This document shows, in pieces, positions 6,834 through 26,152 of a DNA stretch of 32,413 nt. The notes below the pieces were generated by a model. That model saw only the letters and a program-made list of their open reading frames with translations. It was not told the DNA's origin and ran no database searches. The DNA is from Natrialbaceae archaeon. GTDB taxonomy: Archaea > Halobacteriota > Halobacteria > Halobacteriales > Natrialbaceae. Position 1 is the stretch's first letter. Each line of letters begins with the position of its first letter. Where the stretch lies: the NCBI GenBank assembly GCA_003552325.1, contig PUKM01000024.1, positions 1 through 32,413 on the forward strand. The letters are read 5' to 3'. Position numbers and translations under genes: made by a program.

Positions 6834-7529
6834 ATGTCCGACTTGCCGGACGAATTCAAATGCACAATTACGAACTGGGAGTACATCTACAGTCTCTGTC
6901 GGGACGTCAGCGATGACGTCAGACGGGACGAATTCGAACCGGACGTCATCGTCGCCCTCGCTCGAGGTGGCTGGTTCGCTGGCCGCTGTATCTGTGATTT
7001 CCTCGGGATGGACGACCTGACGAGTCTCAAGATGGAACATTACGTCGGCACCGCCGAGAAATCAGGGGAGCCGACCATCCGATACCCAATGCCGGAAGGC
7101 AGCGTCGAGGGAAAAGACGTCCTCATCATCGACGATATCGCCGACACGGGTGGCTCAATCAAACGCGCACAGGAGTACGTCGAGGACCGCGAGGCGGGTG
7201 AAGTCCGCACCGCAACCCTGCAACTGCTCCAGACCAGCGAGTTCGAACCGGACTACGTCGGTGAGCAACTCGAGGAGTGGGCGTGGGTCGTGTATCCGTG
7301 GAACTTCATCGAGGACATGGTCGACCTCATCTCGGGTGTCATGGCAAAGGCTGACGAGGACGCCTTTTCGAAGCGTGATATCCGACACTATCTCAAGGAG
7401 TATCACGAGGTCGACCGGATCGGGATGGAAATCGCGCAACCAAACCGTTTGACGGAAATTCTGACCGAGATGGAACGCCGGGAGGTCGTGACGATGACGA
7501 CGCCTGGTGAGTGGGCCCTCGTCGACTGA
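6834..7529 (+). CDS. Phosphoribosyltransferase family protein with C-terminal extension
   Basis: EPDVIVALARGGWFAGRCICDFLGMDDLTSLKMEHY and KDVLIIDDIADTGGSIKRA (PRPP-binding motif). Confidence 0.9.
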   Translation: MSDLPDEFKCTITNWEYIYSLCRDVSDDVRRDEFEPDVIVALARGGWFAGRCICDFLGMDDLTSLKMEHYVGTAEKSGEPTIRYPMPEGSVEGKDVLIIDDIADTGGSIKRAQEYVEDREAGEVRTATLQLLQTSEFEPDYVGEQLEEWAWVVYPWNFIEDMVDLISGVMAKADEDAFSKRDIRHYLKEYHEVDRIGMEIAQPNRLTEILTEMERREVVTMTTPGEWALVD

Positions 7530-7608
7530 CACTGTCGGCTGTCAGTCGTTCACGAGTCTTACCTACCCGGGTGGCGAGAATCGTTACACAGGTACAATCA
7601 ACAGTATG
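7526..7608. repeat. Dispersed 83-bp repeat, copy 1 (with 25947..26029)
   Basis: ctgacactgtcggctgtcagtcgttcacgagtcttacctacccgggtggcgagaatcgttacacaggtacaatcaacagtatg aligns without gaps to copy 2; about 65 of 83 positions identical by hand alignment. Confidence 0.75.
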
Positions 7609-7642
7609 ATGCGACGGCGTGTAATTCCTGCAGACGACCGGG

Positions 7643-25946: not shown

Positions 25947-26029
25947 CTGATACTGTCGACTGTACGTCGTCCACGGTTCTTTCCTCCCCGGGTTGTGAGA
26001 ATCCGCACACAGGTACAGCCAACAGCATG
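25947..26029. repeat. Dispersed 83-bp repeat, copy 2 (with 7526..7608)
   Basis: ctgatactgtcgactgtacgtcgtccacggttctttcctccccgggttgtgagaatccgcacacaggtacagccaacagcatg, gap-free alignment to copy 1. Confidence 0.75.
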
Positions 26030-26152
26030 AGCCATACGACCGTTCGCGGATGCTGGGGCCAGATTCAGCATGGCGAGCGTGCTGAAGGTATGAACGAACC
26101 AACACTCCCAGACAGCGGATACTATAAACCACCAACACCCCAATGATCGGTA

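Follow-up and report, generated by a model that had tools for sequence, protein, structure and literature searches.

A short palindromic MITE that duplicates TNA targets in haloarchaea and is probably mobilised by IS630-type transposases

Two non-coding repeats in the window (the whole 32,413-nucleotide stretch of DNA that was analysed) are old, mutated insertions of one MITE family, which has terminal inverted repeats, a covarying inner hairpin, a 3-bp TNA target duplication with empty sites in a related genome, and copies in many haloarchaeal genera. The data suggest, with a probability of about 0.8, that this MITE of ~78 bp is driven by transposases supplied in trans by a haloarchaeal subgroup of IS630 elements that make TNA duplications.

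Copy 1 (77 bp, plus strand, positions 7530 to 7606) begins with CACTGTCGGCTGTC and ends with TACAATCAACAGTA, and it lies between TGA trinucleotides at 7527 to 7529 and 7607 to 7609; its inner hairpin (7553 to 7583, plus strand) is decayed and has a CCCGGG centre. Copy 2 (77 bp, plus strand, 25951 to 26027) has the left end TACTGTCGACTGTA and the right end TACAGCCAACAGCA, TGA repeats at 25948 to 25950 and 26028 to 26030, and an inner hairpin at 25974 to 26004 (plus strand) with a CCCCGGG centre. The gap-free alignment over ~83 bp reported in the first-pass annotation was reproduced (80% identity over 85 bp, BLAST E ~1e-15), and so were its contexts, with copy 1 between convergent Pribosyltran and MatE genes and copy 2 between divergent pilin-like and coaBC genes. 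Two features were absent from that annotation: the imperfect palindromic symmetry of the unit, and the use of copy 1's left TGA as stop codon by the upstream gene.

The assembly containing the window is partial (2.33 Mb in 287 contigs, 66.6% complete). A search of all of it recovered ~27 distinct copies, with a best E value of 2e-24, which places the similarity of the original pair beyond chance. Contigs C98 and C252 overlap at their ends, so that two of the listed hits there are one and the same copy, and a further weak hit (L048) was excluded from the family. The copies are dispersed and their flanks are unrelated, as expected of a MITE.

Aligned copies have sharp edges and span TACTGYCGGCTGTA...TACAGCCRRCAGTA, with a length of 76-79 bp in the window's genome and 78 bp in most others; the element contains no gene and falls within the MITE size range of <500 bp. 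It forms a three-part imperfect palindrome, consisting of outer 14-bp terminal inverted repeats (TACTGYCGGCTGTA), ~12 unpaired positions that are specific to each arm (CGTCGTTCA-like versus CTGTGTAA-like), and a GC-rich inner hairpin with a CCGG-like centre. The covariance analysis proposed in the first-pass annotation was performed on 29 non-redundant elements from many genera, in which the sequence of the inner hairpin varies and its pairing is kept. Pairs 28, 29, 31, 33 and 37 were paired above the partner-shuffled level (0 of 400 shuffles for pair 33, p < 0.05 for the others) in a test uncorrected for relatedness of the elements; the outer pairs, being built into the search pattern, provide no independent evidence of pairing. 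The inner hairpin may aid transposition, for example by drawing the ends together.

Shorter forms were also seen. Several genomes (G289, G338, G258 and G385) carry recurrent 70-bp variants in which eight bases are missing from the inner-hairpin tip, and internally deleted derivatives of ~40 bp and less occur at L115:914 (G000:C55) and L117:3371 (G000:C137). These derivatives keep both ends, wholly or partly, and the one at L115:914 also has TCA flanks.

In the window's own genome, 28 flank rows were aligned, with one copy counted twice on overlapping contig ends. The flanking trinucleotides were equal in 18 of these rows and the middle N was equal in 23, a level reached by 0 of 100,000 shuffles; TGA/TGA and TCA/TCA are typical flanks. 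The pattern is sharper in Natribaculum breve strain TRM20010 (G022; the compared 4-kb stretch is identical to CP095391), where the copies are near-identical and therefore recent. All 13 copies on its 637-kb plasmid and 21 of 22 other copies lie between perfect TNA repeats, with unrelated flanks.

The N. breve flanks were then joined with a single TNA and matched against the congener G303. Clean empty sites, which hold a single TNA and lack the element, were found for ~8 of the examined loci (e.g., copies 5, 6, 7, 8, 12, 15 and 17), including the junctions GAGC-TCA-GCGAG, GAGAC-TGA-GTCGC and GAGGAG-TGA-GCC; the remaining loci had junctions with mutations, gaps or incomplete alignment. Insertion therefore adds the element and three further bases, which makes the duplication TNA and not TA. 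One copy in the window's genome (L002) has a right flank that continues from a single TCA in congeners, and its left flank is less conserved. These data show that the MITE inserts into TNA targets with a 3-bp duplication. The movement would proceed by DDE-type transposition into TNA, in which three target bases are copied.

It is extremely improbable that the repeat is a REP-type palindrome and owes its movement to a RAYT (Y1) transposase. REP/BIME sequences resemble the MITE in being small, palindromic, intergenic and present at high copy number, but REP elements are not known to make target duplications and depend on a different enzyme class (Y1), whereas the present element shows perfect 3-bp duplications and empty sites.

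The distribution of the MITE was determined with an exact end-to-end pattern in 394 sampled genomes of the order, with the reversed pattern as control. Intact elements were found in 58 genomes representing 22 of 95 genera, and the control yielded 0 matches. Carrying genomes had from 1 to 99 intact elements, with the maximum of 99 near-identical copies in N. breve, and named carriers include Natribaculum longum, Haloarcula hispanica, Haloarcula sinaiiensis, Halomicrobium sp. LC1Hm and Haloplanus sp. HW8-1. No copies were found in seven congeners of the window's genome, and neither a phage collection nor viral contigs gave a match to the MITE.

The first-pass annotation had named three candidates for the repeat. 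One of them, a MITE-like element, is borne out by the inverted repeats at the ends, the duplication of 3 bp of target, the empty sites and the patchy occurrence. The term conserved intergenic repeat holds as a description and goes no further, since the copies are insertions and the seven congeners yielded none. The third candidate, a small RNA family, is very improbable, and so is a dispersed hairpin that the host retains for regulation or termination. Such a role would fit a palindrome with a covarying inner hairpin, the frequent position of own-genome copies at the 3' ends of genes or in convergent intergenic regions, and the good folding of copy 2 RNA on the minus strand (z -3.9 versus shuffles). 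However, target duplications and empty sites identify the copies as insertions, mobility explains their contexts, and recent copies in N. breve also lie in divergent regions and in some genes. An Rfam search of the window gave no match, copy 1 RNA on the plus strand folded no better than shuffles (z -0.1), and the lack of copies in the seven congeners also speaks against a host function.

Many copies sit in stop codons. In the window's genome, 10 of 22 non-coding copies had landed precisely in a neighbouring gene's stop codon (12% expected, binomial p 9e-5), and the same was seen for 5 of 19 copies in N. breve (9% expected, p 0.02). The expectation was the share of available non-coding TNA sites, with genes from a custom caller trained on the window that erred at least once (the pilin-like gene beside copy 2), and the test is exploratory, as it was conceived after cases had been seen. 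Because TGA and TAA both fit the TNA target, the duplication leaves an in-frame stop and the stop codon is restored. Copy 1 in the window is such a case: the phosphoribosyltransferase-like ORF at 6834 to 7529 (PF00156) ends at the left TGA (7527 to 7529), and its orthologue in a congener (L368) terminates at the same position. Copy 1 landed in this stop codon, and the insertion was tolerated because the duplication restored the stop.

To find a candidate driver, N. breve was scanned for long elements whose ends resemble TACT...AGTA and whose flanks are equal, with a small bonus for equal flanks. The scan identified a 1070-bp IS present in five identical or nearly identical copies. Its transposase is split over two ORFs, with HTH_32/HTH_33 in the N-terminal part and DDE_3 in the C-terminal part; both ORFs matched NF033545 above the cut-off, and PF13358 and PF13592 were also matched, which identifies an IS630-type DDE transposase. 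The ORFs overlap at AAAAAAA, and the sequence there suggests a -1 frameshift. The seven-A run is seen at the overlap in the copy at L142:1871-2940 (minus strand), and two copies that are one base longer (L281 and L285) contain just one long ORF, of 355-371 aa. Close relatives of the IS were found in >15 haloarchaeal genera.

The IS is flanked by TNA. Both sides are identical at 34 listed loci, and many of the exceptions have TNA with a different N. Since the scan favoured equal flanks, empty sites provide the cleaner test of duplication, and six N. breve IS copies have an empty site with one TNA in the congener G303. The IS resembles the IS630 family in its HTH_32/HTH_33 and DDE_3 transposase, its length of ~1.07 kb and its terminal repeats, but differs in the 3-bp TNA duplication, as the classical duplication of the IS630-Tc1-mariner group is TA (PMC7386202). 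A related IS630 element with 41% identity (G020, L224/L228) sits in C-TA...TA-G, consistent with TA. Within the same transposase group, the eukaryotic Fot elements (pogo superfamily) have reported TAA and TAAA duplications, the former also of 3 bp (PMC7386202); the 3-bp form in Fot is TAA only, whereas N in the haloarchaeal IS is C, G, A or T.

The TNA duplication is common to the MITE and the IS, and their ends are similar but non-identical. At its 5' end the IS has a TACTGTCGGCT-like sequence and at its 3' end a TACTCACGGACATAAGTACGTAAAGACAT-like one. The 5' end shares only ~11 terminal bases with the MITE end, while the 3' end agrees with one MITE arm at 15-16 of 20 positions (nt 15-34) in Haloarcula-type MITEs, with a shuffle p of ~3e-4 in the best cases; outside the best pairs, the similarity was not significant (72 comparisons). 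Judged from these alignments, the two MITE arms may have come from the two IS ends, with interior support for only one arm. Transposases of this IS630 subgroup would then recognise the MITE ends in trans.

TNA duplications are also made by PIF/Harbinger-type and IS5/IS1031-type enzymes. A different or lost transposase, for example one of these types, could thus drive the MITE, and the IS630 likeness would then be coincidental or very remote. We regard this as unlikely, although several results point that way. No autonomous IS with exact MITE ends was found in N. breve, where the single-end counts (101 and 99) are explained by the 99 full MITEs. The IS subgroup, at E<=1e-15, was absent from 13 of 22 MITE-carrying genomes searched, including the 67%-complete assembly of the window, and two further MITE-rich genomes had no DDE_3 proteins at all. 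This absence does not refute the IS630 subgroup as driver, because MITEs with a missing or broken driver have been described in Haloquadratum (PMC3119063). Against another enzyme stand the terminal bases, the unusual TNA duplication with its empty sites and the interior of one arm that the IS630 subgroup and the MITE share, together with two further MITE-like families in G303 whose flanks are of the TNA type and one of which shares the end core. Among the PF01609-type (IS4/IS5-type) transposase loci, a subset of 30 was examined and none had matching ends; the hits close by were complete MITEs or chance matches.

Other IS630 elements in MITE-rich genomes were rejected as drivers as well, since their ends mismatch (G137, GAGTGGTC; G020, TAGTAACCG; and G197). 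Isolated matches to one end alone, seen in G055, G033 and G020, could mostly be put down to chance or to MITEs that had decayed or been truncated.

The two further families were observed as high-copy elements in G303. The larger is palindromic (L264, L265, L266 and L261; at ~1480-1600 of the locus) and has the ends TACTGCCGGACAACACGG...TGTTGTCCGGTAGTA, TNA flanks (e.g., TGA/TGA and TCA/TCA) and an end core, CGGACA, that resembles the IS 3' end. The other (L251-L253, L255-L260, L263 and L267) measures ~85-90 bp, spans TAATGATGGCTGTGACTGG...CTCACAGCTATCGTTA, and lies between two TGA trinucleotides in nearly all of the copies shown, often after GAC or GAG, as at gene ends.

MITEs are already known in haloarchaea (PMC3119063, PMC10969869), and Haloquadratum walsbyi has five families (PMC3119063). 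These resemble the present MITE in being short and mostly gene-free, with transposon-like terminal inverted repeats, target duplication and many copies. They are other families, and IS630 is unmentioned in the main text of that report (PMC3119063); unlike them, the present MITE is ~78 bp long, occurs in 22 of the sampled genera and contains a central hairpin that covaries. Our literature search, with ISfinder outside its scope, found nothing on a TNA-duplicating archaeal IS630 or an IS630-linked haloarchaeal MITE; the IS may be catalogued in ISfinder. The mobile element is ordinary in type and unusual in its target rule and structured centre.

The MITE accounts for a widespread, unannotated intergenic repeat of haloarchaea and supplies its exact target rule, and the IS adds a subgroup of archaeal IS630 elements that does not follow the group's TA rule. 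The choice of target renders insertion into stop codons harmless. We tentatively propose, as a possible extension, that a haloarchaeal IS630-type clade cuts with a different stagger, duplicates TNA instead of TA and drives several MITE families across the class, that stop-codon insertions offer a safe niche at gene ends, and that the central hairpin is required for movement. Those who annotate conserved palindromes between haloarchaeal genes as RNAs or regulatory sites should weigh a MITE origin.
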